From NCBI GenBank assembly GCA_018818785.1, contig JAHIRF010000006.1, positions 186,001 through 250,000 on the forward strand: DNA of 64,000 bases. Direction: 5' to 3'. Below are positions 6,746 through 27,786 of the stretch, in pieces. The translations under genes were made by a program, and so were the position numbers. The notes under the pieces were generated by a model that saw nothing but the letters and a program-made list of their open reading frames with translations, searched no databases and was not told the DNA's origin. How positions within the stretch are numbered: position 1 is the stretch's first letter; each line of letters begins with the position of its first letter. Source of the DNA: Thermoplasmatota archaeon (lineage in GTDB: Archaea > Thermoplasmatota > Thermoplasmata > UBA10834).

Positions 6746-6762
6746 ATTTCGGATGTGATCAT

Positions 6763-7689: not shown

Positions 7690-7693
7690 GACT

Positions 7694-10189
7694 TCACTCT
7701 TTGAACTTGGGGAGTTCGACCCGGAATACCGCGCCTTTCGTATGATCCCCCGCGACTCTGTCCTCTGCCCAGACACGACCGCCGTATTTCGATGTCAGAG
7801 TCTTGACCAGATATAGCCCCAGGCCGGACCCTTTCTTCGTAGGCGCGCGACTGAACCTCTGAAAGATCTCCTGCTTGAGATCGTCCGGGACGCCTCTTCC
7901 CCTGTCGGTCACGGATACCACTATTCGATCGACCCCTTCATCCTCGGAGGGCGTCATCGATACCTCTATCTCGACCGGGTCGTTAGAATCGTATTTGACA
8001 GCGTTCGTGAGTACGTTCACGAATAACTCACGTATCAGCTCATCCGCCTTGACATAGCACGGGCCAGCACTCATGTTCTTCTTGAAGACGATCTTCCGGT
8101 TCAGATAATATTGCTCCACGCTATGGATCGATTCAAGGAGCACCTTCCCGAGATCGATCTTTGCGAGTTTGCTATCGCTCCAAGTGATCCGAGACATTGT
8201 CCGAACATCGGCTGCCAGCTTGCTGATGTTCATCACTTGGTCCACGATCTTGTCGATATATACTTCCTGATCAGGCGAGGCCATGGTCGATTTCAGTATG
8301 TCCAAATAGCCCAATATGGCCTGATTGAAGTTCTTGATATCGTGCGACAACAGGTCAGTATAGAATTCTGCGTTCCTTCTGCTAACGATATGGCCCTGGA
8401 CCATGTGAGCGTTCTCCAGCGAAATACCCACCAGACTGGCGAATATCTCGATGATCTCGATGGTCTCCCTGTCTGGGATCCGGTCGTCTCTTGGTTTGAG
8501 GATCTCGAGATATGCCACAGTCTTGCCCTGGCTGTCGAATATCAGCGTGTCGAGGTAATCTAACTCGTGCCAATATTCCTTTGACTTCCTCGGAAGTCTG
8601 AGAAGATCCGGTTCAGGATAGTATATCATCTCCCAAGGTTCGAGACGGACGCTCTCGGCGGGAACATAGTAGGTCATCCGACCGACCTTCTTGCACCATA
8701 GTACCGATGAGTCAAGGCTCCGATGCAGATCCATTTCTGAGATCGTCTCTATCCGATCACTTGGGTAGCTCGTCTTCTTGATAGCCTCGGCTCGTTCCAC
8801 GTCAAACCCGTAGACGGCCCTCACGTCGAATTGCTGTCCATCCTCGCCCCTGAGCGCCAGCACCATCCTCTTTATGCCAACCAGGTGTGCGAGGGTCTTG
8901 AGGATATCCTCCAGCATCTCGTCGATGTCTCGGAGGTATAGGATGTTAGATGTGATATCGAATATCCTCGACATCTGTTCCGTCCTCAGACTACTCAGCC
9001 TCAGAGCGACCTCTTTTTCATGAGATAGTCTCGCGTTCTCGATGGCAACCTCTGCCAACGATGCGAACACCTCGATAATCTCGATCGTGTCGGAGTCGGG
9101 GATGCGCCCATCTTTCGGGGCAGCTGGATATATCACGCCGACCACTCGACCAGTAGAATCATAGAGAGCAAATGGCAATGAGTCACCATCGCGGAATTCT
9201 CCTTCCTCGCGAGGTTTCTTTGATCCCTCGAACTCGTGAGGATTGACGAAATATTCGAGGTTTCGTTTCGGCACATCCTCCATGGGTATGAAGAAGGTCG
9301 TCCTCCCGATCTTACGACTCTCGCGCAAGTCCTCGAGGATGACATCTGTTGGTATCGTCCTTGCCAAGGTCCGTTTCACAGTCTGCTCAGGATATCCATA
9401 GAGAGCCACCCACTTGAACGCGGCTATTCCCTCATCGTAGATCACGAGCGTTACTTTTTGGAAGTCGAACAGCGACGCGACCGAGGATAGGACCATCTCC
9501 GATACCTTCCGAAGGTCCCGTTCAGATACGACCGAGGATGCTATGTTCAGGATGTCCTCCAACATGTCGGTCCTTCGGACCATCCTGTCGGAATCCCGGA
9601 CGATGGATACTCGTTCTCGCCCGCGCTCCAGCTCCAATCCGAACATCTGGAGCAGGAGCTGTGCAGCGTCCACATCATCGCGGCAGGGTAACGGTTCGCC
9701 ATCCTCACCACAGGATACTAAATGCACAACCGGTTTCCCCGTTCTGCTCTCAACGATGATGCCCAGGAGATCTCCTTTGGACCAAACGGGACAGGGTGCG
9801 TCGTTCTCCCTGGAGGAACTCTCTTGGATATCCGCGGATCTTGAAAAATAGCCATTGGAACAGAACAGATTCGAATCGACAAAGAGGGACCGGTACCTCT
9901 CGGACAGGTCGCCATCGATGCCTGCGAACTCATCTCCCACCGCACATATCTTCCATTCGGTATGTGGTTCCGATGATTCATGGTCTTCGAACCATAACAC
10001 TGCACTCTTTAAACCGAGGAGCGATCTCAGAGAAATAATCATTCTCTCGACAAGGACTGTCGGGTCACTTTCCGATGTGATCGCGGCCAGGATCGATCGA
10101 AAATGAGGCATTATTCGACCATCACCCAATGCATCGCCCACTGATGTCCCCGTAGATGCTCTCCCGTTCTGTCTCACTTCACCATCCAC
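7694..10189 (-). CDS. Soluble multi-GAF sensor histidine kinase
   Basis: 831 residues with no membrane segment, so a cytosolic sensor. The N-terminal GAF-like region is followed by two clearly paralogous GAF units (about 210-400 and 405-600). Both end in nearly the same helix (RIPD.(D/E)TIEIIE.FASL). The kinase core has the H-box SHDIKNFNQ with His at about 616, the N-box NVLTNAVKY near 725, the G1 box DRGRGVPDDL near 763 and the G2 box GSGLGLYLVKTL near 787, so it looks catalytically complete. No receiver domain or response regulator is nearby, making it an orphan kinase. An internal ATG 27 residues downstream is an alternative start. Confidence 0.9.
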   Translation of the reverse strand: MDGEVRQNGRASTGTSVGDALGDGRIMPHFRSILAAITSESDPTVLVERMIISLRSLLGLKSAVLWFEDHESSEPHTEWKICAVGDEFAGIDGDLSERYRSLFVDSNLFCSNGYFSRSADIQESSSRENDAPCPVWSKGDLLGIIVESRTGKPVVHLVSCGEDGEPLPCRDDVDAAQLLLQMFGLELERGRERVSIVRDSDRMVRRTDMLEDILNIASSVVSERDLRKVSEMVLSSVASLFDFQKVTLVIYDEGIAAFKWVALYGYPEQTVKRTLARTIPTDVILEDLRESRKIGRTTFFIPMEDVPKRNLEYFVNPHEFEGSKKPREEGEFRDGDSLPFALYDSTGRVVGVIYPAAPKDGRIPDSDTIEIIEVFASLAEVAIENARLSHEKEVALRLSSLRTEQMSRIFDITSNILYLRDIDEMLEDILKTLAHLVGIKRMVLALRGEDGQQFDVRAVYGFDVERAEAIKKTSYPSDRIETISEMDLHRSLDSSVLWCKKVGRMTYYVPAESVRLEPWEMIYYPEPDLLRLPRKSKEYWHELDYLDTLIFDSQGKTVAYLEILKPRDDRIPDRETIEIIEIFASLVGISLENAHMVQGHIVSRRNAEFYTDLLSHDIKNFNQAILGYLDILKSTMASPDQEVYIDKIVDQVMNISKLAADVRTMSRITWSDSKLAKIDLGKVLLESIHSVEQYYLNRKIVFKKNMSAGPCYVKADELIRELFVNVLTNAVKYDSNDPVEIEVSMTPSEDEGVDRIVVSVTDRGRGVPDDLKQEIFQRFSRAPTKKGSGLGLYLVKTLTSKYGGRVWAEDRVAGDHTKGAVFRVELPKFKE

Positions 10190-12295: not shown

Positions 12296-13942
12296 ATGAA
12301 GTACGATGTCGGCATTCTCAACGGGCAAATAGTGGATGGAGCCGGGAACCCCTGGTACAAGGGAGATATCGGCATATCCGGAAAGACCATCAAGAAGATC
12401 GGCAAGATCGACCGCAAGGACTGCGAGCGCACGATAAACGCGAAGCAGATGTACGTGTGCCCGGGATTCATGGACATCCACACTCACTCCGACCTCACAG
12501 CGCTGGTTTTCCCAGGCTGCGACAGCACTCTGAGGCAAGGCGTCACCACACATCTGATAGGCAACTGCGGGCTGTCCGTAGCGCCCTTGAGGGAACCAAA
12601 TGTCGACCTCATGATGACGTACTGGGGAGAATGGGCAGGAACCGGAAAGAAACCGAAATGGAGAACCTTCAAGCAGTACCTGAAGGAGTTCGACAGGAAA
12701 GGCATCGGACACAACATAGCCGCACTTGTAGGCCATGGTGCGATCAGGACCGCGGCGATGGGAGCGGACATGGGCGACCCTACACCGAAGGAACTGAGAC
12801 TCATGAAGGAGCTCGTGGACGAGGCGATGAGCGCTGGAGCCTTCGGGATGTCGACTGGGCTCGTCTATCCTCCAAGCTGCTTCGGCAAGACTCCCGAGAT
12901 AATCGAACTATGCAAGGTGGTCGCTAAGTACGGAGGCATGTACACATCCCATATACGAGGGGAGAGAGAGACCATAGCCGAGGCAATCAAAGAAGCCATC
13001 CTCATAGGCGAGAAGAGCGGAACGAGGGTCGAGATATCCCACAACTGTCCGAAATACGGCGCATGGGGAAGGACTGGCGAGACGCTAGGACTCGTGGAAG
13101 AGGCCATGGAGAGAGGACTCGACGTCACGATCGACAACGACATGCACACCGACCTGGCGCCTAGACTGAGTGGTGCGCTCCCGCAATACCTACACGAAAT
13201 GGACAAGCCCGACCTTCTCGCTCATGTAGATGAGAAGGATAACAGAAAGAGGATCAAGAAGGAGATCATCGAAGACAAACTCCCGGCGTTCGGACCGTGC
13301 GGCCTCATGAAACACGGGAAGTTCGACAGGATATTCATCATGCACTGTCCCGGCCAGGAACCGCTGGTTGGCAAGACCATCGAGCAGGTGGCGAAGATGA
13401 GGGGGGATGACCCGTTCGACACTTATTTCGACATCATGATCGAGAGCAAGGACGAGGCGATCGCGATCTTCGATTACATCAGCGAGGATGATGTTAGGAC
13501 GCTCATGTCCCACCCGCTGATGATGATATCATCAGATTGCGCGACATGGTCCGTGAAGGGGCCGCTGACGGACCCTCCACCGTACATGCCCTGTGCGTTC
13601 GGCGAGTATCCAGGCATACTGGAGAGGTTCGTCAGGGACGACAGGGTCCTGACCATGCAGGATGCGATTCGGAAGATGACGAGCTTTCCGGCACAGAAGA
13701 TGGGACTTCTTGATAGAGGGCTTCTGAGACCTGGCATGCGAGCCGATATCGCCATCATAGACCTGCCGAACGTGAAGGACAAGGCGACCAACCGATGGCC
13801 ACATAAGCATCCGTTCGAGAACTACCCGCATCAGTATCCAGATGGCATACCATACGTCCTCGTGAACGGAAAGATCGCGGTGGACAACGGTCGTCAGATG
13901 AAGGTCAAGGCCGGAGAGGTACTCAGACACCGATGGCCTTGA
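12296..13942 (+). CDS. N-acyl-D-amino-acid deacylase-type amidohydrolase
   Basis: 548 residues of the metal-dependent amidohydrolase superfamily (D-aminoacylase group, COG3653). Visible motifs are GFMDIHTHSD (metal-binding His62 and His64, Asp66), the GNCG loop at ~89-92 whose Cys is a metal ligand in D-aminoacylases, STGLVYPP, TSHIRGE, EISHNCPKYG, and a late SSDCATW carrying the conserved catalytic-type Asp. The C-terminal part (GLLDRGLLRPGMRADIAIID) closes the small beta-sandwich. It probably hydrolyses an N-acyl amino acid or related amide; D-specificity is inferred from family only. It converges, with 3 bases between stops, on an N-terminal-nucleophile hydrolase that also acts on amides. 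Confidence 0.85.
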   Translation: MKYDVGILNGQIVDGAGNPWYKGDIGISGKTIKKIGKIDRKDCERTINAKQMYVCPGFMDIHTHSDLTALVFPGCDSTLRQGVTTHLIGNCGLSVAPLREPNVDLMMTYWGEWAGTGKKPKWRTFKQYLKEFDRKGIGHNIAALVGHGAIRTAAMGADMGDPTPKELRLMKELVDEAMSAGAFGMSTGLVYPPSCFGKTPEIIELCKVVAKYGGMYTSHIRGERETIAEAIKEAILIGEKSGTRVEISHNCPKYGAWGRTGETLGLVEEAMERGLDVTIDNDMHTDLAPRLSGALPQYLHEMDKPDLLAHVDEKDNRKRIKKEIIEDKLPAFGPCGLMKHGKFDRIFIMHCPGQEPLVGKTIEQVAKMRGDDPFDTYFDIMIESKDEAIAIFDYISEDDVRTLMSHPLMMISSDCATWSVKGPLTDPPPYMPCAFGEYPGILERFVRDDRVLTMQDAIRKMTSFPAQKMGLLDRGLLRPGMRADIAIIDLPNVKDKATNRWPHKHPFENYPHQYPDGIPYVLVNGKIAVDNGRQMKVKAGEVLRHRWP

Positions 13943-13945
13943 GGA

Positions 13946-15010
13946 TCAGAGTTCGTATCTCCTGTACTCGCCAGTGCATGGGTTCCCAGAGCATATCCAT
14001 GCCACATTGTGCGTCAGATCCAGGACCGTCGAGAAGACGGTCGAAGTCTGCTCGGCCTCGCATAGCGATGGATCGGCATGACGACAGATCGATTCGGGGT
14101 ATCCTACATGGTCGGAGAAGATCTCCTTGAAAGTCGATACCTCCACCTGCCCGAGGTGCTTCTTGAAGAGCTTCTTCGCGCGATTGTAGCGTATGATGGA
14201 TGAGATGCGCGTGTGCATGTCGCTCTCGTACTTCCACATGCGCGGAGACAGATAGTGGTTCGCATGGACCAGGTATCCATCCTCCGCGTAGATGGCGTCG
14301 AAGGTGGTAGCGGATCCTTCCATGCTGTATATCTCACCGTTGTGGTCGCAGACGATATTGTTGAAGCTCGAGCTCCGTCCTACGGGCACGGCGAACCTAA
14401 GGGCATCGTAAAGGCCTCTCGCGCTGAGGACCTTGCGGACCGCGAACATCTTCGGGATGCCCGACCTAGAATCGTTCTGAACCAATGCGTTCCCAGTCAG
14501 ACTTATCCCTGCTGCATTCAGACCAATCGTTAGGAGTATGCCTCCGTAGCTCACGCCGATGAACCCAGGTTCGCCTGATGGCTTCACACGGACTATCGCG
14601 AGGTCCTCGAAATTATATGGTTCGACATCCTCGTTGTGTGCGGCGAACACCAAATCGTTCTTGGTCCATTGGGCGTTGACCGCGATGTCTGTGCAGCCTT
14701 TTCCGATTCCGGTAAGGTCGCAGACGTCCGCGTAGAATTCATCGAATGATAGGCCCGCACCATCGGCATAACCCTCCAACTCCTCGACGTACTCGGGGAA
14801 GAACTCTCTGCTGAGCGGAAGGGTCTTCTTGGCGGCAGAGACGGCCTTGGCCATTGTCATCCCGGGCCTTCGGCCCACATCAGCCTTGAACCTCTTATGG
14901 ATCCTCATGGCCTGATCCCTGCATTGCTTGCCGAGGGATACTCCGACCTGATAGTGACTGCCCGATGCTGCGACTTCCCTGATACCTTTGGTCTCGCGAT
15001 TCCTTACCAT
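13946..15010 (-). CDS. Peptidase C45 / acyl-CoA:6-aminopenicillanate acyltransferase-like Ntn hydrolase
   Basis: 354 residues. The family has a Cys that becomes the N-terminal nucleophile after self-cleavage. Here GIGKGCTDIAVNAQ, followed by NDLVFAAHNEDVEPYNFEDL, matches the cleavage region (G-C-T) and the HNEDW-like segment. The upstream helical part (GVSLGKQCRDQA, LEGYADGAGLSFDEF) is the expected pro-chain. Family members cleave or form amides of acyl amino compounds. ATG 15010 has GGGGGA six bases upstream, so it is preferred over the TTG at 15016. It lies tail-to-tail with the D-aminoacylase-type gene, which may indicate related substrates. Confidence 0.82.
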   Translation of the reverse strand: MVRNRETKGIREVAASGSHYQVGVSLGKQCRDQAMRIHKRFKADVGRRPGMTMAKAVSAAKKTLPLSREFFPEYVEELEGYADGAGLSFDEFYADVCDLTGIGKGCTDIAVNAQWTKNDLVFAAHNEDVEPYNFEDLAIVRVKPSGEPGFIGVSYGGILLTIGLNAAGISLTGNALVQNDSRSGIPKMFAVRKVLSARGLYDALRFAVPVGRSSSFNNIVCDHNGEIYSMEGSATTFDAIYAEDGYLVHANHYLSPRMWKYESDMHTRISSIIRYNRAKKLFKKHLGQVEVSTFKEIFSDHVGYPESICRHADPSLCEAEQTSTVFSTVLDLTHNVAWICSGNPCTGEYRRYEL

Positions 15011-15118
15011 CCTCAATCCCCCGGCTCACGTTGTTGCAGATGTCCAGAATGACATCGCATATCAAAAGACTTCTCAATGAGGAGAACCACTCGATACAAT
15101 GATGCACATTCTGAATCG

Positions 15119-15576: not shown

Positions 15577-18500
15577 ATGATAAATAGAGCAATACTAGCG
15601 GGCTTTGCAGTGCTGCTAACCGTAATGTCTGCTTTTGCGTTTTTACCGGCAAAAGCGGTTTCGGCAGCAGCAAATGAAGACGTGTTGTATATTGCTATGC
15701 AGCAGGATATTCCTGACTTCAACAATTACAACCTCGGTACCAACAGCGTGTGGAAGGCTCACGTGATAAACAACTGTTTTGAAGGCCTTTCGGCCACTGA
15801 CTTCGACTTGAATACGATCAAGTTGTTAGCAGAGGATTGGACTTTTGACGAGGTCGCCCTTACCGTGGATGTCACTATCCGACAGGGAGTGAAGTTCCAC
15901 GACGGCACTACGATGACCTCAGCGGACGTCTACTTCTCGTATCTGATGGCGAGAGATGGAACGACCTACGCTGACAGGATCATCCAGGCATTCGACCAGA
16001 ACGACGACGATGTGGTGAACGAGACCGAGATGAAGGAGGGTCTGATCGTAGACGAGGACGATGAATATCATGTGACATTCGTGATGGCCAAGCAGTACGG
16101 CCAGTTCTTCACGAGCACATTATCAGTACCCATAGTTCCGAAGCACATATGGGAAGACCATGTAGACGCTGACTCTAAGGTGGATATCACATGGGGAAAC
16201 GACGTTGCTGCGACCATCGGAACTGGACCATGGAAGTATGATAGCGGAGTCTCCAACTCGTACAGAGTTGTCAAGACCTTCGACGACTACTGGGGGAAGG
16301 ACTTCGTGACCCCGGCGGGCATGCCGACCTTCCCGAGAGTCCTTGATACGTTGTACTTCAAGATTTACAGCAACTTGGACACCGCGATTCTAGCACTCCA
16401 AGGAGGCGATGTCGACTACATCGCATGGACCGTGACCTCAGGTCGTGTTCCAGCTCTCCAGAGCGACCCGAACATCGGTCTCGAGTACATGTCTGATTCA
16501 GGGTACTTCTACCTGGCGTTCAACATGAAGAAAGAGCCGATGAACAACCTGACCTTCAGGAAGGCTGTTTCCCATATGATCGACAAGAACCAGATCGTCG
16601 ATATTTACATGGGTGGATTCGGTCAGGCTGGTTCTGCAGCCGTCTCGCCGTTCTTCGGTGAATGGTACAACCCAGCGGTCGAGAAGTATCCCTTTGACAT
16701 AGCACTTGCCGAGGAGATGCTCGACGATGCCGGATATATCGATGTCAACGGCGATGGCTGGAGGGAGCTGCCTGGTGGCGACCTGATGGACAAGATAACC
16801 TTGCTCTGCCCACCTGCGGACTACGACCCCGTCAGGATAAGAGCGGGACAGATGATAGCGACCAACATGAGATTGGCAGGTATCAACGTCGAGGCGAAGG
16901 CAATCGATTTCAACACACTCGTTGCCAAGCTGACCGCGTTCGACTACCAGATGCTTGAACTTGGTTGGACCTTCACGGGCTACACGGAATGTGTCAGCGT
17001 CCTGTTCGACATATACAGCCCGACTGCGGGATCGAACTCGTGGGGATTCTGGTCAGACGCCAACCCGAACCCATGGTATTCTTCGCTCGGCGGTGTGAGC
17101 ACGCTCGCTGACGAAACGACCCAGGCCATGGCGGATGATTTCGTCGACCTTGAGGACCAAGCGAGAGAGACTTTCGATATAGCGGATCAGATTGACTATG
17201 TCAAGCAGGGGCAGGCGATCGTAGCCGATGCGGTCGTGTGTAACGTCCTGTACTACAGGGTGAACGTCGAGGCGCACAACAAGATATACACCAACTGGAC
17301 GGTGTTCGACGGCACGCTCATCAACCCCTTCTGCTTCGCGGTGCTCGAGTATTCGGGCACAGGCGGAACGACTGGCGGAGGAGCTGTCACAACAGGCCTT
17401 GACGCAGGACTCACGATGGCAGAGAAGGTGGCCTGTGATGATAGCGTCAATGCCTACGTGCTCGCAATAGATGACATGGGAGAGCCGATCGCGGGTGCGA
17501 CTGTTGCGGTAGAAGCGACCAACGGAGTGGCGACAGTATCACCAGCATCGGGAACCACTTCTGCCAGCGGGGTGTTCGAGTTCACCGTGACTGGAACGGC
17601 TTCCGGTATTGCCACGGTATGGGCGAATGTGACAAGTGAGGCCTTGACAGCTAGCGATTTCTCGAGCTTGCTGGTCACATCACTTGGCGGCATCGGAGCT
17701 TCGATGATGCCAGCCAAGACCGTCCTCGAGACAGGAGAAAGCATGGATGTTGATGTCCTAGTGACCGATGTGAACGGAGACCCAGTGGAGGGCGCCACCG
17801 TCACTATCGATCCGTACCTGCTCGGTTATGGTTCGATCGATCCCACCACGGATGTTACGGGTGCTGATGGAATGGTCACCCTTGTGTATACTGCACCGGA
17901 GGATGTCATTCAGAACCAGCATCAGATCGTGACCCTTGCAGCTTCGGTGAGCCATGAGAAATATACGCTGACCAATCTGGCCACGAGCACCATATTGGTA
18001 TACAACCCAGCAGCACCGATATGGCACATGACCACGATCGATTCGGTGTCCACAACGGCTCTGAGCCAAGCATCACCGACCGCGACCATAACGGTCATGG
18101 CGATGGATGTGGACGGAGATCCGATCGAGGGCGAGATTCTAGGCATTACCTACACTAACGACTCGCTCGTAGACACCCCGGAAACCGATTTGGTAACGGA
18201 TGCATCAGGCATGGCGACTTTCGATGTGACCTTCGATGATATCGGAACCGATGCGGCTCTGATGGTCACGATAGGCAACCGTTCGTTGGCCAATTCGATC
18301 ATGGACTCCGTGACACTGACATATTCCGATACGGGTGCGTTAACGGATATGTATGGTGGATATGTGGAATACGCGACACCAAAGTTCGTCGATGTGTGGG
18401 GCACAATCGATGTGACCATCAATGTCTTCGACAGCCAGGGCAACCCTGCAGATGGGGTCACGGGTAGCGTCGTGGTCGCCGCGACCGCCAATGGTCAGTT

Positions 18501-20001
18501 GACCGACTGGTCCGGAACCGAATACAACTCCCTGTTCGACTATGTGGGTATCAACATCGTGACAGATGGAGATGGCCAGAACATCGTCACTGCAGGATCG
18601 TACTCCGCACCGGAGTACCTTGAAGGGTGGTTCTGGAACGATGTCACTGAGGAATATGATATCCCCTTGGACATAGTGGGTGTCGAGATAGCCGGAGGAG
18701 TCTATGAAATGACCATAGAAGGTGTGGATTTGGCCCACTTGGACCTTGCGATGGACCTGTTCATGGTGCCAGACTCGACAGCGGACTACAACTGGGACAC
18801 CTTCAACCACGACATATATGGTCAGACGACGATTGCAGGCCACTACGGCTACGGAAGGGCCATGAGCTTCACGACCGTCACATACGAGGTCGATAAGCCC
18901 GTCCTGCAGGCCAAGGCATCGGAGTTCGACATGTCGCCGGTGACTGTGATTGCGTATGATGAGAACGGCGTCGTGATAGATGGAGCCGAGATCGCCATCT
19001 ACGAGATAGGCGGCCCGATCCCCGAGCTGCCCTATAGCGACTACAATGTATCTGACGATGGAGTCAAGATGACCCCGGCCACCGGAGAGGTTACAATGAA
19101 CCTTACCGCAGCTGCATACGATACAGTCAGTGAAGGATACGATGCAGTCGTGACGAAGACGAACCCCGAGGTATACATTGCGGCCTATGTCGACGGATCG
19201 ATGACATTGGCGAGTCAGACACAGTTGGTCATTCAGCCGCTCAGAGAGTCTGTATATGTCACGCCGACCCAGATCGTCGATGTGAGGATGATCGGCGACG
19301 ATGTGTACGCGACCGTCGAAGTGCTGGATGCCACCGGAGCACCATATGCGGACCTCCCGGTCAGCATCGGTGTTAGTACGGGAACGGCAGTCACTCCGAC
19401 AGTTGTCACCGACGCAGATGGTATGGCTACCTTCGTGATAGACACCTCAGGGATTGCCAATGCTGAGGCCGCACTCATCGCAGCTGGAATAACCACGGGC
19501 GGAACACCCGAGGCTGGTACTGCGAGGATGGTCATAGCGGTCAAGAACATGGCACCTGAGATCGAGTTGTCTTCACCGATCGCGGATGGAGAGACATCGT
19601 TGGCAGAGGTCATGGGTATGATCTACGATTCCAACGGAATCGCGTCCGCGACCCTGGCCCTTGATGATGGCAGTGCGAGTGCACTCACCGTCACCGCGGG
19701 ATCCAAGGCGGTAGTGGTATCACATGCCCTTGAGGACCTTGCGACTGGCGAGCACACGATAGTCATAACCGCAACCGACTCGCTCGGTGTATCGAGCGAG
19801 ACAACGGTGACATTCACCTTGACTGACGGTGGCACGGACTTGTTGCCATGGATCATTGCAGCAGTCGGGTGGATCGTGGCGGCAGTCGTGATCGTCATGA
19901 TGTTCCTCAAGATGAAGGGACCATCGGGACCAAAAGAGAACCCGGATGGGATGGCATTCGAGGAACCTGCGGAGCCAGTGGAAGAGGAGAAGAAGGAATA
20001 G
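15577..20001 (+). CDS. Oligopeptide-binding protein (SBP family 5) fused to Ig-like repeats and a C-terminal membrane anchor
   Basis: 1474 residues. A signal peptide (MINRAILAGF... to PAKAVSAAA) precedes a family-5 extracellular solute-binding domain (about 35-590; landmarks QGVKFHDGTTMTSADVYFS and NLTFRKAVSHMIDKNQIV). A Gly/Thr linker leads into six or seven Ig-like units of invasin/Big_1 type (about 610-1430). Recurring turns are D.NGDPVEGATV and D.DGMATFV. A final helix (LLPWIIAAVGWIVAAVVIVMMF) and an acidic tail anchor it in the membrane. The Ig string would hold the binding domain away from the membrane or in the cell wall layer. Typical homologues are 500-700 residues. ATG 15577 has GAGAGG upstream; ATG 15544 and 15487 are in frame. 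It heads the dpp/opp-like operon. Confidence 0.92.
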   Translation: MINRAILAGFAVLLTVMSAFAFLPAKAVSAAANEDVLYIAMQQDIPDFNNYNLGTNSVWKAHVINNCFEGLSATDFDLNTIKLLAEDWTFDEVALTVDVTIRQGVKFHDGTTMTSADVYFSYLMARDGTTYADRIIQAFDQNDDDVVNETEMKEGLIVDEDDEYHVTFVMAKQYGQFFTSTLSVPIVPKHIWEDHVDADSKVDITWGNDVAATIGTGPWKYDSGVSNSYRVVKTFDDYWGKDFVTPAGMPTFPRVLDTLYFKIYSNLDTAILALQGGDVDYIAWTVTSGRVPALQSDPNIGLEYMSDSGYFYLAFNMKKEPMNNLTFRKAVSHMIDKNQIVDIYMGGFGQAGSAAVSPFFGEWYNPAVEKYPFDIALAEEMLDDAGYIDVNGDGWRELPGGDLMDKITLLCPPADYDPVRIRAGQMIATNMRLAGINVEAKAIDFNTLVAKLTAFDYQMLELGWTFTGYTECVSVLFDIYSPTAGSNSWGFWSDANPNPWYSSLGGVSTLADETTQAMADDFVDLEDQARETFDIADQIDYVKQGQAIVADAVVCNVLYYRVNVEAHNKIYTNWTVFDGTLINPFCFAVLEYSGTGGTTGGGAVTTGLDAGLTMAEKVACDDSVNAYVLAIDDMGEPIAGATVAVEATNGVATVSPASGTTSASGVFEFTVTGTASGIATVWANVTSEALTASDFSSLLVTSLGGIGASMMPAKTVLETGESMDVDVLVTDVNGDPVEGATVTIDPYLLGYGSIDPTTDVTGADGMVTLVYTAPEDVIQNQHQIVTLAASVSHEKYTLTNLATSTILVYNPAAPIWHMTTIDSVSTTALSQASPTATITVMAMDVDGDPIEGEILGITYTNDSLVDTPETDLVTDASGMATFDVTFDDIGTDAALMVTIGNRSLANSIMDSVTLTYSDTGALTDMYGGYVEYATPKFVDVWGTIDVTINVFDSQGNPADGVTGSVVVAATANGQLTDWSGTEYNSLFDYVGINIVTDGDGQNIVTAGSYSAPEYLEGWFWNDVTEEYDIPLDIVGVEIAGGVYEMTIEGVDLAHLDLAMDLFMVPDSTADYNWDTFNHDIYGQTTIAGHYGYGRAMSFTTVTYEVDKPVLQAKASEFDMSPVTVIAYDENGVVIDGAEIAIYEIGGPIPELPYSDYNVSDDGVKMTPATGEVTMNLTAAAYDTVSEGYDAVVTKTNPEVYIAAYVDGSMTLASQTQLVIQPLRESVYVTPTQIVDVRMIGDDVYATVEVLDATGAPYADLPVSIGVSTGTAVTPTVVTDADGMATFVIDTSGIANAEAALIAAGITTGGTPEAGTARMVIAVKNMAPEIELSSPIADGETSLAEVMGMIYDSNGIASATLALDDGSASALTVTAGSKAVVVSHALEDLATGEHTIVITATDSLGVSSETTVTFTLTDGGTDLLPWIIAAVGWIVAAVVIVMMFLKMKGPSGPKENPDGMAFEEPAEPVEEEKKE

Positions 20002-20030
20002 ATCGTCTTCGATAAACCCCTTCCCACAAA

Positions 20031-20056
20031 CTTCTTTCGGTTTTTCATTTATTCTC
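20031..20056 (+). terminator. T-rich stretch after the binding-protein gene
   Basis: CTTCTTTCGGTTTTTCATTTATTC follows the stop by about 30 bases. T-rich tracts are the usual archaeal termination signal. It may give partial termination between the abundant binding protein and the rest of the operon. Confidence 0.45.
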
Positions 20057-20100
20057 CGACAATCAGCATGCTGTGGATAAAAACCGAACCAGTCTGGTCC

Positions 20101-20112
20101 AAAGGTTAATAG
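20101..20112 (+). promoter_or_regulatory. Possible internal promoter before the permease genes
   Basis: AAAGGTTAATAG resembles a BRE plus TATA box and lies 50 bases ahead of the DppB-type ATG. Together with the T-rich tract just upstream it could let the membrane and ATPase subunits be transcribed separately from the binding protein. Confidence 0.45.
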
Positions 20113-20161
20113 TGCCAGAAGGGTCTTCAAGTACAGAGCCCCGTTTGGGTAGGGTACGATT

Positions 20162-21151
20162 ATGGCAGGGATGGCTCGATATGTGGTCGCGCGGAGCATT
20201 CAGACATTCATAACCCTGCTCATCATCCTCACGCTGATTTTCATAATGTTCGAATCGCTCCCAGCGAGGCCTCAAGACCTCCTTAGGACTTCGCCAGCCA
20301 TTCAGCAGTCGCAGATAGATTACATGACAAGCCTTTACGGCTATGATCGACCAGTCCACGAACGATACGCGATGTATATGGTGAATATGCTGACATTCGA
20401 TTTTGGCATCTCGTTCAGCAGAGCTATCGAAGTCTCGAGCATATTAGAGGAACGGATACCTAAAACACTGCTGCTGTTCGGTGGAGCCACGATACTCGCA
20501 TATGTCATAGGCATATACCTCGGAGCCTTGATTGCCTGGAGGAGGGGAGGGGCATTGGATGGCGGCACGGTCGTCGTCAGCCTGGTGTTCTACAACATGC
20601 CATCCTTCTGGATCGGCCTCATATTCCTTGTCATATTCGCATCCCAGTTGGATTGGTTCCCATTAACGGGGTGGTACGATGCGACTGATAGCATGCCATT
20701 CTTCGCATCGGGCACGCTTGGATTCAAGATCCTTGACATCGGATGGCACTTATTCCTGCCCATGTTAGTGTTATTGCTTCTATCACTTGCAGGCACCATA
20801 CTCTTGATGAGGACGGCCATGCTCGACGTGATAGGCGAGAATTACATGATCACGGCGAAGGCGATCGGCCTTCCTGAGAGGAAGGTGCTGTTCAAACACG
20901 GCGCTAGGAACGCCATGCTGCCCGTCGTGACTTCGTTCATAATCGCATTCGTTTTCGCAATAGGCGGAGCCGTGGTCCTTGAGAACGTTTTCAGCTTCCC
21001 AGGCATGGGACAACTATACATCCAATCACTGAACCAGCTCGACTTCCCGGTCGCCGAAGCCACACTGTACATAATCACCCTGATGGTGTTGCTCGGCAAC
21101 TTCGTTGCAGACATGCTGTACGGATATCTTGACCCGAGGGTGCGCATTTGA
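20162..21151 (+). CDS. Peptide ABC transporter permease, DppB/OppB type
   Basis: 329 residues with six predicted membrane helices. The N-terminal YVVARSIQTFITLLIILTLIF helix and the following LPARPQDLLRT loop are typical of DppB. The ABC-coupling EAA-like region is ITAKAIGLPERKVLFKHGARNAMLPVV, followed by VVLENVFSFPGMGQL. Unlike its partners, this subunit has no added domain. Its stop overlaps the next start by one base (TGATG). An internal ATG at 20171 is a possible start. Confidence 0.95.
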   Translation: MAGMARYVVARSIQTFITLLIILTLIFIMFESLPARPQDLLRTSPAIQQSQIDYMTSLYGYDRPVHERYAMYMVNMLTFDFGISFSRAIEVSSILEERIPKTLLLFGGATILAYVIGIYLGALIAWRRGGALDGGTVVVSLVFYNMPSFWIGLIFLVIFASQLDWFPLTGWYDATDSMPFFASGTLGFKILDIGWHLFLPMLVLLLLSLAGTILLMRTAMLDVIGENYMITAKAIGLPERKVLFKHGARNAMLPVVTSFIIAFVFAIGGAVVLENVFSFPGMGQLYIQSLNQLDFPVAEATLYIITLMVLLGNFVADMLYGYLDPRVRI

Positions 21152-23433
21152 TGGAAGAAACGAAGACCGACGAGACCAGCAAGAGACCCGATGCGAGGGA
21201 GCTTCAGGAGGCAGGCCAGAAGGCGATCAGAAAGTTCTGGAAGAACTTCAAGGCTACCTGGAAACTCTATAGGCAGTCGAAGACCGGTATCGCGGGACTG
21301 GCTATCGTCGTGGGGTTCTTCATCATGGCACTGGGAGCTCCCTGGCTCGCTCCATACGACAAGGACTTCCGAGCACCTGCGACCGACACCTTCGTTGCGG
21401 ATTACGCGTTGCTGAACCTGACAGAGGGGCGGGACTGGACCAGATTGCTAGGGCTGACAGACTCTCTGAACAGAGACCACCCACTCGAAGGGATATTGGC
21501 GTACTCTGAGGAGGGAATGGCTACAGTCTACCCAGTCACGCGTGGAACAAGCGCAGAGACGGAAGAGATCGGGATTGAGATCAGCGACCCCTTAGCGATA
21601 AATCTACCGGCCAACGCGACCTACATGAACCACGTGCTCTTCTCGACGACTTTCTTCTACATAGTCAACACCACGGATCCAGTGGCTGGGACTTCGACCC
21701 TGTATGAATACAGCTCATTCATCCCAACCGCCACAGCTAGTACCTATGAGCTCCTCCGGCAGTACGAGTTACCGTTCGTGCCCAAGTATAACTCGAACCT
21801 CTGGAATGGGTTCTCATTCGTCTATCCGAGCGGCAGGCTCGCGCTCGCATTCGCGGACGACCACAATGTGTGGATGATAAGCAAGAGAGCCGCGACCATA
21901 TATGATTCCGGGAGCGAGTCCTTCGACTACATCAACAATCTCACGATCGATGACAGCACGATAATCGGGAACCCGGTAGTCGTGGACGGTGACTTCGATA
22001 ACGGTAGCATGCTATTCGTCCCGACAGACGTGGGCATACGTGCGTACAGACTCAATGTGACCAAGACCCTGGTTACTAGGACGGTCACCGACATCACGAT
22101 CGAGGGGTTGGTTTGGACCAGCAACTACACGATCGACGGGGAGACCTATGAGCCCGTGGCCGGAAATAACATGCTCATATTCCCATTCCCATACGGGCCG
22201 ACAACCGCTCTTGGAAAGGAGTACGTCGCACTTGCTGCCACGGACGGCACGGTCGCTGCCTATGACAGGGTGACCGGCAACTTGACCTGGTCCACCAAGC
22301 CCATGTTGACTGGCGTGAGAAGCTTCGATATCACTTCGCTCTATTCTGCCCCTGATTTCCTGGTGATGGTCGGACAGACCAACGATGAACGTGGCATGAT
22401 AGCTGGCCTTGACAAGAAAACTGGCAGGGTGGGCGAGAACAATACAGTGTTCACCACGGTAAGCGGGTATCTGAACAGCGACCCTCAGTATGTCGCAGGT
22501 CAGCTGATGTATGTGTTCAGCACGGATGAGGGGGCGATATACTTGGCGAATTCATTGATGAAGGTCAATGCGACCTTCAGCGCCCCTGGAGGAGGAGCGG
22601 TCACACCCGTGGCATACTTGGGTAACATATACATCGAGATGAGCAGAGCAGGCAACTACTTCGCAGTGGTGACCGAGAGCAACCAACTGTTCCTTGAGAC
22701 GCTCACTGGTGTGAACGTGGCCCCTCTGGCCCCTGGAACCTATCCATCGGGCAACTACTATCCGCTTGGGACAGACTATGAGGGACATGATATTCTGACG
22801 CAGCTGATGTGGGGAACCAGAGCGGAGCTGCTCGTCGGTATAACAGCGGCGTTCTTCTCAGTGGTCATCGGCACGATCGTGGGTCTGGTCGCGGGATTCT
22901 ATGGAGGCATGCTCGACGATATACTGATGCGCGCTACCGATGTGATGTTGAGCCTACCCTATCTGGTTATCATGCTATTGTTCGCAGCGGTCTTCGGACC
23001 ATCACTTCTCAACATCATCATCATATTCGCGATATTATCATGGGCGGGCATAGCGAGGGTCATACGTTCGGTCACCCTCTCGTTCAAGGAAAGGGCCTTC
23101 GTGGATGCCGCCAGAGTAGCTGGCGCATCAGATAATAGGCTAATATTCAAGCACATAGGACCGAACGTGCTTCCGTACACGTTCCTCTACATGACTTTCA
23201 ACATCAGCGGAGCCATCGTGACCGAAGCCATCCTGGCGTTCCTGGGATTCGGTGATCCTACAAACATAACGTGGGGCATGATGTTGCAGTTCCTGCAGAT
23301 CAGCGGACACACCCTCGACGCACCCTGGTGGCTCCTGCCTCCAGGGATAGCCATAACCCTGCTCTCGCTCGCGTTCTATCTGATGGGTAGATCGTTCGAT
23401 GAGGTAGTCAACCCGCGTTTGAGGAAGAGGTGA
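21151..23433 (+). CDS. Peptide ABC transporter permease, DppC/OppC type, with a large beta-propeller-like insertion
   Basis: 760 residues against about 300 for normal DppC. The first membrane helix (GIAGLAIVVGFFIMALGAPW, ~46-65) and the LAPYDKDFRAP loop are standard. So is everything from LGTDYEGHDILTQ (~540) onward: TM2-6 and the EAA-like segment VDAARVAGASDNRLIFKH. Between them are about 460 extra residues. They are beta-rich and Asn/Thr-rich, with PQQ-like blade motifs such as VALAATDGTVAAYDRVTGNL and AGLDKKTGRVGEN, consistent with a beta-propeller. By topology the insertion faces outside. It may contact the binding protein or peptides. The start ATG overlaps the dppB-type stop; the next gene follows by 4 bases. 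Confidence 0.92.
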   Translation: MEETKTDETSKRPDARELQEAGQKAIRKFWKNFKATWKLYRQSKTGIAGLAIVVGFFIMALGAPWLAPYDKDFRAPATDTFVADYALLNLTEGRDWTRLLGLTDSLNRDHPLEGILAYSEEGMATVYPVTRGTSAETEEIGIEISDPLAINLPANATYMNHVLFSTTFFYIVNTTDPVAGTSTLYEYSSFIPTATASTYELLRQYELPFVPKYNSNLWNGFSFVYPSGRLALAFADDHNVWMISKRAATIYDSGSESFDYINNLTIDDSTIIGNPVVVDGDFDNGSMLFVPTDVGIRAYRLNVTKTLVTRTVTDITIEGLVWTSNYTIDGETYEPVAGNNMLIFPFPYGPTTALGKEYVALAATDGTVAAYDRVTGNLTWSTKPMLTGVRSFDITSLYSAPDFLVMVGQTNDERGMIAGLDKKTGRVGENNTVFTTVSGYLNSDPQYVAGQLMYVFSTDEGAIYLANSLMKVNATFSAPGGGAVTPVAYLGNIYIEMSRAGNYFAVVTESNQLFLETLTGVNVAPLAPGTYPSGNYYPLGTDYEGHDILTQLMWGTRAELLVGITAAFFSVVIGTIVGLVAGFYGGMLDDILMRATDVMLSLPYLVIMLLFAAVFGPSLLNIIIIFAILSWAGIARVIRSVTLSFKERAFVDAARVAGASDNRLIFKHIGPNVLPYTFLYMTFNISGAIVTEAILAFLGFGDPTNITWGMMLQFLQISGHTLDAPWWLLPPGIAITLLSLAFYLMGRSFDEVVNPRLRKR

Positions 23434-23437
23434 TGAT

Positions 23438-24838
23438 ATGACCCTGCTAGAAGTTAAGAACCTCAAAGTGCACTTCAAGATCCATAACGGCTGGGTGAGA
23501 GCCGTGGATGATGTCACCTTCAGCATCGATTCAGGCGAGACCATGGGCCTCGTCGGGGAGAGCGGATGCGGCAAGACCACGGCCGCGTATGCCATCACGC
23601 AGCTCCTGCCGCCGAACGGCTACATCAAGGGCGGGATGATACTCTTCAAGGAGCCGCCCGAGGTCACCGCCCTCAGAGAGGAGTACGACCGCACTTTTGA
23701 GAAAACACCTAAGATGAGGCAGAAGGAAATCGCCCGAGTGAAGAATGGTCTCAAGCCGCTGCAGGACGAATTCGGTAAGCTCACACAGCAGAAGAGACAG
23801 CTGGAGAAAGAGAAGGCGACCGCCCTTGCAGAGCTGACCAAGCAAATCAAGAAACTCGATAGCAGCATGGAGAAGAACGCCCCAGTTCCGTCGGAGCTGA
23901 CCAGACAAATGGCGGAGCTCACGACCAAGAAGGAAACTCTGGAAAAGAAGGACCCCATCCCAACGGAGCTGACGAGGCAGATGGAGGGACCCGGCATCAA
24001 GATTCGGGATCTTGAACTCAAGCTCTCTGCGCTGACCTATTCACATGACCTCCTTCGGATTTCGATGCGTAAGGACGGTTCACTCGACGACTACAACGAG
24101 AAGATCCGTGCGATACGCTGGACGGAGATCTCCATGATATTCCAGGGGGCTATGAACGCGTTCAATCCGGTCTTCAGGATCGGTGACCTCATAGTGGAAG
24201 CAATCCAGTTGCACGAAGATGTGGACGACGAGACCGCTAAGAAAAGGGCCATGGACCTCTTCGAGTTCGTTGGCATCTCCCCAGATAGAATAAGCAATTA
24301 CCCTCATGAGTTCAGCGGTGGCATGAAGCAGAGGGCGATGATCGCGCTCGCGCTCGCCCTCAAACCATCGTTCATCATAGCCGACGAGCCCACGACCGCA
24401 CTCGATGTGATAACACAGGACAGGGTCCTGATGGAGATCAAGAAACTTCAAGAGAAGCTCAACATGGCCATGATGATCATCACACACGATGTCTCCGTGG
24501 TCGCAGAGGTCTCCGACAAGATCGGGGTGATGTATGCGGGCATGTTGATGGAGATCGGAGAGACGTCTCAGGTGTTCAAGAACACCGCTCACCCGTATAC
24601 CGCAGGCCTCCTGAACTCATTCCCCTCGATAAAGGGGGAGAGGAAGAGGTTGGAGACCATCCCAGGATTCCCGCCGGACCTGGTCAACCCACCCAGTGGT
24701 TGTCCTTTCCATCCAAGATGCCAATACGCCCAGACAAGATGTTCGGAGAAGAGGCCAAAGGGTATGGAGATCGAACCAGGCCACACGGCTTACTGTCATT
24801 TCGCCGGAGAGCTATGGGACAGGCTCAGGAGGGGATGA
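23438..24838 (+). CDS. Peptide ABC transporter ATPase, DppD/OppD type, with coiled-coil insertion
   Basis: 466 residues against about 330 normally. Walker A GESGCGKTT (~40-48), Q-loop MIFQGAMNAFNP (~233-244), signature FSGGMKQRAMIALAL, Walker B plus ADEPTTALD, and the OppD C-terminal Cys motif GCPFHPRCQYAQTRC are all intact, so it should be an active ATPase. Residues ~75-222, between Walker A and the Q-loop, are an insertion rich in Glu, Lys, Gln and Leu with strong coiled-coil character. It includes an internal repeat, PVPSELTRQM and PIPTELTRQM, 24 residues apart. The insertion interrupts the point where OppD normally has only a short loop. It overlaps the next gene by about one base. Confidence 0.93.
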   Translation: MTLLEVKNLKVHFKIHNGWVRAVDDVTFSIDSGETMGLVGESGCGKTTAAYAITQLLPPNGYIKGGMILFKEPPEVTALREEYDRTFEKTPKMRQKEIARVKNGLKPLQDEFGKLTQQKRQLEKEKATALAELTKQIKKLDSSMEKNAPVPSELTRQMAELTTKKETLEKKDPIPTELTRQMEGPGIKIRDLELKLSALTYSHDLLRISMRKDGSLDDYNEKIRAIRWTEISMIFQGAMNAFNPVFRIGDLIVEAIQLHEDVDDETAKKRAMDLFEFVGISPDRISNYPHEFSGGMKQRAMIALALALKPSFIIADEPTTALDVITQDRVLMEIKKLQEKLNMAMMIITHDVSVVAEVSDKIGVMYAGMLMEIGETSQVFKNTAHPYTAGLLNSFPSIKGERKRLETIPGFPPDLVNPPSGCPFHPRCQYAQTRCSEKRPKGMEIEPGHTAYCHFAGELWDRLRRG

Positions 24839-26694
24839 TGGGTATGCAACCTACTACACACGTCATCATCAAGGTGAGGGGTCTCAAGAAGTACTTCGAG
24901 CTGAAGAAAGGGTTCTTCTCTTTCGGAAAAGAGCCCATCAAGGTAAAGGCGGTCGATGATGTCAACTTCGACATCCGGTCTGGTGAAGTGCTTGGACTCG
25001 TCGGAGAGAGCGGATGCGGCAAGACTACGGTAGGTAGACTGCTCACGCGGCTCGAGGACCCCACAGAGGGCTTTGTGTTCTTCCTGGGCAGGGACATAGC
25101 GCTCTTGGAAGGGCAGGATGTCAAGGTGTTCAGACGCAACATACAGATGGTCTTCCAGGATCCGTATGAGTCCCTCAACCCGAGGACAACCGTGCTCCAG
25201 ACGGTCATGGAGCCACTCATAAACCACAACATAGGAGACACCCCAGAAGACAAGATAGAGAGAGTCATCCAAGCATTGGAGGATGCCGGGTTGGCTCCTG
25301 CGAAGGAGTATCTGAACAGGTTCCCTCACGAGCTCAGCGGTGGCCAGAGACAGCGGGTGTCGGTCGCGCGTGCGCTCGTGATCAAACCCAAAGTCATTGT
25401 TGCTGACGAACCTGTTTCCATGCTCGATGTCTCGATACGAGCGGGTGTGCTGAACCTGATGCTGGACCTGAGGGACAAATACGGCATACCCTACCTATTC
25501 ATCACCCACGACATCGCAGTCGCCAGATACATCAGCGATAGGCTAGCGGTCATGTACCTTGGCAGGGTGGTGGAGATCGGGGAAACGGACAGCATCATAC
25601 AGTCACCTAAACATCCCTACACGCAGGCTCTGATTTCTGCGGTGCCCGTTCCTGACCCTGACGCAAAGCATGGACGTATCAAGATCAAGGGAGAGGTGCC
25701 GAGCGCTGCGAATGTCCCGCTCGGATGCCGATTCAGACCGAGATGCCCGAAGGCCTTTGAGGAATGTGGATGGCAGGGAGAAGATCTGGTCGAATGGCTG
25801 GAAGAGAACGGAGACTTGAGCCCTGATAGCGTACTGACCACGGAAGTGAGTAAGCTGCACCCGGATGAATTCGTGCTGGGGTTCCATCTCAAGGAAGGCA
25901 TGGACCTGGAGAAGGTCCTAGGGTTCGTCAGAGAGAGAACATCCCAGACCAGGGATGCGAACCCGATGTTCAGGGCGATCGATAGGATCGACACCGTCTT
26001 GACTGACCGAGCCATAGAGATACGGTGCGACTCGGCCGAGTTATCCGCCAATGACCTCGCAGCAGAACTATTCATGGAACTCGAATCGATCGTACGCTAC
26101 AAAGAGATCGACCATCCGATGCATGGCATCATCACCGGTATGAGCAGGGTAACTAACAAGTTGACCGTGGATGTCGATAGTGGAACTGCCGAGAACCTCG
26201 ACACGATAGAGGCTTTCCTGAAGGATTTCGTCAAACATTACCGCAAGATGAGCAGACCAGAGTTCAGGGGCGTCAAGACGATCTCATCCAGCTCCTCTGG
26301 GAGGACGGTCACGGTCACTTGCGACGCATCCAAGGAACCCGGATACAAAGTTGCCAAGGACGTCTCCCGCCTGATTGCAGACATCTACGTCAAGGAGGAC
26401 ATGGATGGTCTCGGAGGACTCCTGCTCCCGATCAAGGTCAAAGGCAGCCGGATTACTGTGAAGATAATGGGCCCAGACGAGAACTGGAAGAAGCTGCAAT
26501 CGAGCTTCAAGGATTTCCTGCGCGCGAAGGGTGAGAGCGGCGAGCACAGATGCGCGGCAGCCGTGGCGGACATCTCGATCAAGTCGATCAAGGGAACCCA
26601 TGGCGCCGTTGTCGTGAAGTTCAGGACTGTCGTGGAGCCGCCACAGTTCGATGTCGGCGAACAACAGGTGGCCTGCTATCTGTATAAGAACTGA
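24838..26694 (+). CDS. Peptide ABC transporter ATPase, DppF/OppF type, with ~310-residue C-terminal extension
   Basis: 618 residues against about 320 normally. The ATPase part has Walker A GESGCGKTT, Q-loop MVFQDPYESLNPR, signature LSGGQRQRVSVARAL, Walker B with ADEPVSMLD, and the OppF-type Cys motif GCRFRPRCPKAFEEC near residue 295-310. What follows (~310-618) is an acidic, mixed alpha/beta region that I do not recognise. It includes two stretches of similar rhythm (LFMELESIVRYKEIDHP and FLKDFVKHYRKMSRPEF). ATG codons at 24835, 24838 and 24844 are close together behind AGGAGGGG; 24838 gives good spacing. A frame extends back to 24700 but lies inside the previous gene. Confidence 0.92.
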   Translation: MGMQPTTHVIIKVRGLKKYFELKKGFFSFGKEPIKVKAVDDVNFDIRSGEVLGLVGESGCGKTTVGRLLTRLEDPTEGFVFFLGRDIALLEGQDVKVFRRNIQMVFQDPYESLNPRTTVLQTVMEPLINHNIGDTPEDKIERVIQALEDAGLAPAKEYLNRFPHELSGGQRQRVSVARALVIKPKVIVADEPVSMLDVSIRAGVLNLMLDLRDKYGIPYLFITHDIAVARYISDRLAVMYLGRVVEIGETDSIIQSPKHPYTQALISAVPVPDPDAKHGRIKIKGEVPSAANVPLGCRFRPRCPKAFEECGWQGEDLVEWLEENGDLSPDSVLTTEVSKLHPDEFVLGFHLKEGMDLEKVLGFVRERTSQTRDANPMFRAIDRIDTVLTDRAIEIRCDSAELSANDLAAELFMELESIVRYKEIDHPMHGIITGMSRVTNKLTVDVDSGTAENLDTIEAFLKDFVKHYRKMSRPEFRGVKTISSSSSGRTVTVTCDASKEPGYKVAKDVSRLIADIYVKEDMDGLGGLLLPIKVKGSRITVKIMGPDENWKKLQSSFKDFLRAKGESGEHRCAAAVADISIKSIKGTHGAVVVKFRTVVEPPQFDVGEQQVACYLYKN

Positions 26695-26737
26695 TCAGCA
26701 TGATCCCTTTCAGCTAGATGGAGAGAAGGTGGATGAC

Positions 26738-27337
26738 GTGGGCGTGATGGCAGAGCTCAGGAAGAGATGGTTCGTATCGATGCTAAGCATAGCAGCCGCG
26801 ATCTTCTTTACAGTGGCGCTGATAGTCTCCGCCAATACATATGTCAATGTGATGGATGCGAATGCGAGCGTTGTCCTCATGAACGCCATCGAGGGCGCAG
26901 AAATGCTGGATAACGGCTCGATCTTGGTGACGATCCAGATCCAGCTGGACAATCCGTCGGATCTTGATCTCAGCATCTCCACGGTCAGCTGGACTGTGGC
27001 GATATGGAATTACACCGACGGTGTGAACATCATCCCAGTCACGAGTGCCTATAACGGGACAGGGGATGGACTCACTGTCAAGAAGAAGAGCGTCGAAACA
27101 TTCACGTATCAAGTCATAGTCTCTGATTCGACCAGGCTTGCCAACATAGATGGTTTCATCAATTACTCGATGACCCAGGGCCAGGATTACACATTGGAGA
27201 CCGTACCATACGTACACGACTTCAGGGTCACGGGCTGGATAGCCGATTACCCTCATGACTACCAGACATATCGAGAGACATATCTCAATGACATGGCCAG
27301 GATAGATCTGAGTTACCGGGATGGTGAGTATCTGTGA
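26738..27337 (+). CDS. Single-span membrane protein of unknown function (operon-associated)
   Basis: About 199 residues. One N-terminal membrane helix (WFVSMLSIAAAIFFTVALIV) is followed by an external beta-rich domain with LDNPSDLDLSISTVSWTVAI, reminiscent of LEA14/WHy-like domains: the phrase ILVTIQIQLDNPSDLDL resembles their core. That comparison is by eye only. GTG 26738 lies 8 bases after a GGTG element; ATG 26747 is the alternative. It starts 43 bases after the DppF-type stop and overlaps the next gene by 4 bases, so it appears to belong to the transporter operon. Confidence 0.65.
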   Translation: MGVMAELRKRWFVSMLSIAAAIFFTVALIVSANTYVNVMDANASVVLMNAIEGAEMLDNGSILVTIQIQLDNPSDLDLSISTVSWTVAIWNYTDGVNIIPVTSAYNGTGDGLTVKKKSVETFTYQVIVSDSTRLANIDGFINYSMTQGQDYTLETVPYVHDFRVTGWIADYPHDYQTYRETYLNDMARIDLSYRDGEYL

Positions 27338-27786
27338 AGATCAGGAGGGAGGATTGGATCAGGATGTTCACGGTGGCCCTATTCAGCGCGCCCGCCATCG
27401 CGTTCATGACCTTCGATTTCGTATTCCCAAACATCTCGTCCCCATCGCTGGGGAAGAACTTGCTGGCGGCGTTTCTTCTTGCAGCGCTATTCGGGATGCC
27501 CTCAGGATACCTGACCAGGAGGACGGACCTCGCAATAGTGACCGTGATACTATACGTCTTCATCGGCTACATACTATCGATCATCGCATACTCGACCCCG
27601 TTCCTGTTCTACGATTTCAGGATCATCTTCCCAGACCTGTACATCATGTTCTTCCTGAACATGACAGTCATACTCTTGATGCTCTTCGTCTTCGCGGGGT
27701 TCATCGGCGTGATTATGGGGCAGTTGCTCGCAGAATCTTTCGAGAAGGAAGAGACATCTCAGTCATTCTCCAGAGGACGCATGTGA
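27334..27786 (+). CDS. Four-helix integral membrane protein of unknown function
   Basis: 150 residues with about four hydrophobic helices: MFTVALFSAPAIAFMTFDFV, LLAAFLLAALFGMPSG, AIVTVILYVFIGYILSIIAY and MFFLNMTVILLMLFVFAGFIGVIMG. A short charged tail follows. No family recognised. The GTG start at 27334 overlaps the previous stop (GTGA), which implies translational coupling, so this is probably the last gene of the transporter operon. Confidence 0.65.
   Translation: MKIRREDWIRMFTVALFSAPAIAFMTFDFVFPNISSPSLGKNLLAAFLLAALFGMPSGYLTRRTDLAIVTVILYVFIGYILSIIAYSTPFLFYDFRIIFPDLYIMFFLNMTVILLMLFVFAGFIGVIMGQLLAESFEKEETSQSFSRGRM

Follow-up and report, generated by a model that had tools for sequence, protein, structure and literature searches.

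What is encoded at this locus? The window, a 64,000-nucleotide stretch of Thermoplasmatota DNA, contains an operon whose open reading frames were confirmed at their coordinates and follow the order SBP-DppB-DppC-DppD-DppF-M6-M7, where SBP denotes the solute-binding protein and M6 and M7 are two accessory membrane proteins. Genomes, families, genera and loci are labelled below as G###, f#, g# and L###, respectively; the source family of the window is f1. The features discussed are the following.

12296..13942, + strand: amidohydrolase, D-aminoacylase-like (Amidohydro_3 8e-28)
13946..15016, - strand: C45 autoproteolytic acyltransferase/hydrolase, oriented away from the SBP gene (NF040521 1e-61)
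15577..20001, + strand: SBP, 1474 aa, family-5 solute-binding protein (SBP_bac_5 5e-64, aa 82-482)
17374..19806, + strand: Ig-like stalk of the SBP, aa ~600-1410 (Pfam: Big_1 in four stretches, MG4 in three)
20162..21151, + strand: DppB-type permease, 329 aa, ordinary size (BPD_transp_1 1.8e-39; Opp4B is the best NCBIfam match)
21151..23433, + strand: DppC-type permease, 760 aa (OppC_N 2.7e-8 and BPD_transp_1 2.1e-27)
21385..22752, + strand: 456-aa DppC insert, predicted eight-bladed BamB/PQQ-type beta-propeller (alignment, profiles, AlphaFold2, Foldseek)
23438..24838, + strand: DppD-type ATPase, 466 aa (ABC_tran and oligo_HPY)
23654..24046, + strand: coiled-coil insert of DppD (alignment; weak coiled-coil Pfam matches)
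24838..26694, + strand: DppF-type ATPase, 618 aa (ABC_tran and oligo_HPY)
25726..25767, + strand: codons of Cys297, Cys303 and Cys310, the first three predicted cluster ligands (invariant or nearly so in the alignment)
25768..26634, + strand: 289-aa DppF insert separating Cys3 from Cys4 in the [4Fe-4S] motif (alignments; AlphaFold2)
26674..26676, + strand: codon of Cys613, the fourth predicted cluster ligand, after the insert (invariant in the alignment)
~26738-27337, + strand: M6, single-TM protein with an extracellular domain, accessory gene (alignment; remote match to its f4 counterpart)
27334..27786, + strand: M7, four-TM protein, accessory gene (profile match to its f4 counterpart)

By its sequence features the operon is a type I importer of the Dpp/Opp family: it combines a family-5 SBP, DppB/DppC heterodimeric permeases with OppC_N and two oligo_HPY ATPases (Pfam/NCBIfam), and alignments show the four-Cys [4Fe-4S] motif to be complete in both DppD and DppF. 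An NCBIfam search placed none of the operon proteins in an equivalog family at its cut-off. We infer that the cargo is peptides; relatives in the Dpp/Opp family also carry nickel and other solutes. The DppB and DppC genes overlap by 1 base, as do those of DppD and DppF, and the M6 and M7 genes overlap by 4 bases. An in-frame ATG at 15487 would lengthen the SBP to 1504 aa, and the start was taken as 15577 because the signal peptide and the relatives support that position. The first-pass annotation of this DNA had given lengths of 1474, 760, 466 and 618 aa beside a DppB of ordinary size, all of which are correct, and had noted two membrane proteins at the 3' end, which prove to be conserved members of the operon. 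It had also raised the prospect that these genes are chimeric assembly artefacts. The operon was found again in 13 of 19 f1 genomes, as far as the contigs reach, and its relatives come from complete chromosomes as well as from MAGs deposited separately. Given the same architecture across many separate assemblies and genera, frames that stay open, and purifying selection in the DppC and DppF inserts (dN/dS ~0.06-0.27), we regard an assembly chimera or false gene fusion as virtually inconceivable. The propeller used as a query gave no match among plasmids.

The SBP consists of a signal peptide, the binding domain, an Ig-like stalk of ~800 aa and a C-terminal TM anchor (aa 1426-1444), and its stalk aligns along its full length with relatives in other families. 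One genome, G011, departs from this pattern: at L039 13482-19165 the SBP gene of the operon has shrunk to a 187-aa remnant, which is adjoined in opposite orientation by a divergent 1592-aa SBP, an apparent replacement or inversion.

The DppC insert is placed by alignment between TM1 and the LGTD motif ahead of TM2. The same loop measures 13-35 aa in the other DppC proteins of the window's genome, against 456 aa here, and the TM1-TM2 loop of E. coli DppC is extracytoplasmic (PMC12136057). In a profile search the inserts of nine of twelve relatives matched PQQ_2 at E<0.01; the window's own insert scored 25.0 bits against a curated cut-off of 27.6, and that of L123 (f14) scored 38.8 bits. Compared with PDB sequences, the window's insert matched BamB chains (4e-5). 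Its AlphaFold2 model is all-beta, with 32 strands within residues 80-518 and pLDDT mostly 60-89, and Foldseek searches with this model retrieved BamB and WD40 propellers; the permease half of the DppC model was poor. The insert is likely to be an extracellular eight-bladed propeller, as sequence profiles and the model both predict. Neither PDB sequence searches nor Pfam profile searches detected a catalytic or cofactor signature in the DppC inserts. The two additions that had been assigned to the outside, an Ig string and a propeller, are thus borne out as a Big_1/MG stalk on the SBP and a predicted propeller in the extracellular DppC loop.

How widespread are such ectodomains? We searched the phylum with the DppC permease domain and then read 20 loci. 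TM1-TM2 inserts of 340-830 aa are present in DppC proteins of at least twelve families (f1, f2, f4, f5, f7, f10, f11, f12, f14, f15, f19 and f41). L046, L048 and L135 (ORFs of 757, 770 and 765 aa) are counted as insert-bearing, a hydrophobic stretch in the insert having misled the hydrophobicity rule, while L131 and L132 (f23) were rejected as DppB-DppC fusions. Some of the inserts give propeller-type matches (PQQ_2 or Beta-prop_ACSF4), several give no match, and that of G311 (f11) is a Kelch-type propeller. In the permease tree the window falls in a 22-row group (94/82) of which every member, once two labels are corrected, is insert-bearing; f5, f2, f7 and others make up a second group with inserts. 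Because of these groups we conclude that the ectodomain is, on the permease phylogeny, an old trait of these importers; sequence homology between distant inserts is weak, the best hhalign value of a distant group against the window propeller being 93.7% (G341) and most being <55%.

The loci also differ in their other subunits. An enlarged DppB, of 460-679 aa, occurs in f10, f11, f14, f15 and some f4. In G311 (L128 9653-12973) the adjacent subunits DppC, DppB and DppD measure 1106, 577 and 422 aa, respectively, and in G052 (f4; L125 5953-9900) DppB (491 aa) and DppC (818 aa) both have large TM1-TM2 inserts with no Pfam match. In G341 (f15; L117 4042-7515) DppB and DppC are joined in one 1157-aa protein, the DppC half of which carries a propeller in its TM1-TM2 loop. 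In f5, f7 and f2, DppD and DppF are fused into a protein of ~710-750 aa, followed by a 3-TM protein of 113-136 aa (L133, L136, L137, L138, L140, L141 and L114).

M6 and M7 match no family in Pfam or NCBIfam. BLAST had given the first impression that they are specific to f1, which was overturned by inspection of downstream ORFs and by profile comparison: M6 aligns with its f4 counterpart (hhalign 75%, E 2.5e-5), M7 does so as well (97.9%, E 3e-13), and M6/M7-like pairs lie 3' of dppF in f1, f4, f14 and f11. No such pair was found in the loci read from f19, f10 or other f4 genera.

The remaining two additions are cytoplasmic. The DppD coiled coil is inserted into the beta-hairpin that follows Walker A and precedes the Q-loop of the ATPase; among f1 relatives its length ranges in the alignment from 0 to ~130 aa. 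The cysteine motif of DppD reads C-x5-C-x6-C-x17-C. The DppF addition had been described as a C-terminal domain, which is ruled out since the fourth cysteine and its VAC(Y) context come after it: Cys613, kept in all aligned relatives, lies downstream, and the addition separates Cys3 from Cys4. The predicted [4Fe-4S] ligands of the window's DppF are C297, C303, C310 and C613; those of E. coli DppF are C293, C299, C306 and C323 (PMC12136057). In the AlphaFold2 model (pLDDT mostly 75-93) the insert forms three tandem bbabba-like repeats of about 80-95 residues each (~337-419, 432-518 and 533-612). This repeat reading is supported by the existence of a two-repeat version in other f1 operons, which matches profile positions 1-93 and 186-286. 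Shortened inserts between Cys3 and Cys4 also occur in ordinary Dpp operons of sister genomes (L108 9370-10983, L110 1975-3621 and L112 1-1231); those of L108 and L110 are the two-repeat form, and L112 ends at the contig edge. The insert had no match among Pfam families or PDB sequences, and two Foldseek searches, both dominated by ABC ATPases, identified no fold relative. An insertion that parts two cluster cysteines by ~300 residues while all four are kept offers a test of what an Fe-S site tolerates and of what it is for.

How are the additions distributed? Of the 19 f1 genomes, 13 have the DppC propeller, 12 the SBP stalk and 14 the DppF insert, and G003, G004, G005, G008 and G016 are without all three. 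Across 390 sampled genomes of the phylum, the SBP stalk and strong propeller matches were found in an identical set of eight (G000, G245, G299, G363, G366, G378, G053 and G059), which share ancestry in the permease tree and so are not independent; several of the eight also have an M6/M7 pair. The operons of f4, f19 and f41 have an SBP that aligns end to end and a DppC of 757-770 aa, and their DppD (~350 aa) and DppF (334-386 aa) are ordinary, with no DppF insert. Conversely, the DppF insert occurs in ordinary f1 Dpp operons with an SBP of 575 aa and a DppC of 302 aa (G012 and G017), and in the samples searched it is limited to f1; the propeller, stalk and M6/M7 are not confined to that family. 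Because DppF is ordinary in f4, f19 and f41, and because its insert is also found in ordinary Dpp operons, the additions differ in age and are separable, and their distribution rules out an obligate unit of five. We infer that the DppD coil and the DppF insert are later, lineage-specific decorations dispensable for transport.

These results divide the earlier proposal that the five additions form one apparatus around the importer. In its favor, the stalk and propeller occupy the same eight of 390 genomes, and M6/M7 homologues follow dppF in other families; against it, the DppD coil comes and goes, the DppF insert is uncoupled from the rest, and stalks stand beside ordinary DppC proteins. The segments do occur singly in unrelated transporters, so that the five-part set falls as an obligate unit and the outside pair survives. 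Profile and structure searches yielded PQQ_2/BamB matches for DppC and Big_1/MG4 matches for the SBP and identified no relative of the DppF insert. By sequence comparison the enlargements are conserved, were acquired separately and make up no single fixed set; the architecture occurs more widely, and its parts are more loosely linked, than the earlier reading held.

How might the outer parts work together? We propose that the SBP on its Ig stalk would, though still tethered, sample peptides at a distance from the membrane, that the propeller at the translocation mouth would catch the SBP or its stalk and set the SBP over DppB/DppC, and that M6 and M7 would help to assemble or steady the outer complex. 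A docking role for the propeller is suggested by its site at the translocation mouth, by its co-inheritance with the stalk and by the example of MalF-P2, a large permease ectodomain in contact with the SBP (cited in PMC3150292). In E. coli, the SBP caps DppB/DppC and DppC pairs with DppF (PMC12136057). By analogy, a Dpp/Opp importer whose propeller could serve as a docking platform for a tethered SBP is the reading that we favor, with a confidence that stops somewhat short of even. A different reading, that the enlargements are mostly structural decoration which provides spacing or envelope stability and has no specific role in transport, would account for the Ig/PKD-like domains on at least six of the eight SBPs of the window's genome, including those of transporters with an ordinary DppC, for the several kinds of large DppC and DppB ectodomains, and for the free variation of the DppD coil and DppF insert. 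It fits poorly with the joint inheritance of stalk and propeller and with the conservation of the DppC insert, which retains 0.81-0.87 amino acid identity between sister genomes (dN/dS ~0.06-0.17), and we consider it unlikely, if worth keeping in mind.

Inside the cell, the DppF insert would project from the Fe-S region into the cytoplasm, on the half of the complex that contains DppC, probably for regulation or partner binding; this role, like that of M6/M7 in assembly, is suggested by gene order and position. The propeller outside and the DppF insert inside would then lie on the same DppC-DppF half, and a transporter that doubles as a receptor could relay a signal, peptide or redox, into the cell. 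The pairing of DppC with DppF in E. coli agrees with such an arrangement, as does the location of the insert between [4Fe-4S] ligands: oxidation of the cluster dissociates the E. coli Dpp complex, and replacing the cluster cysteines of DppF disassembles it (PMC12136057). Nevertheless, the propeller operons of f4, f19 and f41 manage without the DppF insert, which in turn occurs beside ordinary DppC, and we judge signaling of this kind to be highly improbable.

The neighborhood of the operon bears on yet another possibility. In genera g1 and g2 the operon retains the amidohydrolase and C45 hydrolase genes as neighbors, a possible link to N-acyl or D-amino-acid peptides, but the pair did not turn up on the upstream side in those g3 loci that were read. 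Proteins and glycans are common ligands of beta-propellers, and the propeller might be a collector rather than a dock, binding outside polypeptides, glycans or secreted proteases and feeding the importer. The two hydrolase neighbors and the Kelch type of the f11 propeller speak for this, while the lack of a catalytic or cofactor signature in the inserts and the missing neighbors in g3 speak against it; on balance it seems an unlikely account. Against the docking reading, other DppC ectodomains show either no propeller match or a Kelch match, so that the fold may lack specificity for a single partner. Elsewhere, the window's genome encodes six Dpp-type DppB/DppC pairs and only three ATPase pairs. 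Four of its DppB/DppC/SBP sets (L010-L013) have no adjoining ATPase genes, and an isolated DppD/DppF pair (G000:C9:128000-129900; L092 ~5970-8070, minus strand) may serve several importers.

Taken together, and returning to the docking reading, we tentatively propose an ancient seven-subunit peptide importer of Thermoplasmatota, previously undescribed, in which a DppC propeller or other ectodomain would act as receptor for a tethered, Ig-stalked SBP, joined by M6/M7, and which in one family carries a three-repeat DppF domain between two cluster ligands; the whole of this proposal is less than probable. Our search of open-access papers turned up neither an account of a propeller or ectodomain on the permease of an archaeal peptide importer nor one of M6/M7 or the split Fe-S motif, in keeping with the earlier remark that a peptide importer with this set of additions is not known. 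The uptake of peptides is a central process in archaea that degrade proteins, yet the structures of this transporter type that our searches found are all bacterial. Large DppC loop domains across the phylum, together with two unnamed membrane subunits, suggest that archaeal importers may receive tethered SBPs differently.

Finally, we compare the importer with known systems. E. coli DppABCDF (cryo-EM 8z1v-8z1y, PMC12136057) shares the plan of five subunits, the OppC_N/BPD_transp_1 permeases, the pair of oligo_HPY ATPases and the four-Cys [4Fe-4S] motif with identical Cys1-Cys3 spacing, but its DppC is without a large TM1-TM2 domain, its DppA is soluble and stalkless, and it has no M6/M7. The Cys3-Cys4 spacing in DppF is 16 residues in E. 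coli versus 302 in the window. The OppD of Mycoplasma (NCBIfam MMSYN1_0167, 561 aa) also has extra sequence in front of the Q-loop region, perhaps at the point where the DppD coil is inserted, a comparison made by profile coordinates that implies no homology. The predicted eight blades and the BamB match, together with the PQQ_2 matches among relatives, ally the DppC insert with BamB/PQQ_2 propellers; however, the window's copy is built into a loop of an archaeal permease, and a BAM complex is not known from archaea. In MalFGK2-MalE, MalF-P2 is a large extracytoplasmic permease domain beside the SBP docking site, a functional analogy only: MalF-P2 is much smaller, lies in a different loop and belongs to a sugar importer. 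There are parallels within the phylum too, where the importers of f2, f5, f7, f10, f11, f12, f14, f15 and f4 (including G052) share the TM1-TM2 site in DppC and often a long SBP, whereas their insert sequences are strongly diverged or of the Kelch type and several have an enlarged DppB or a fused DppD-DppF.
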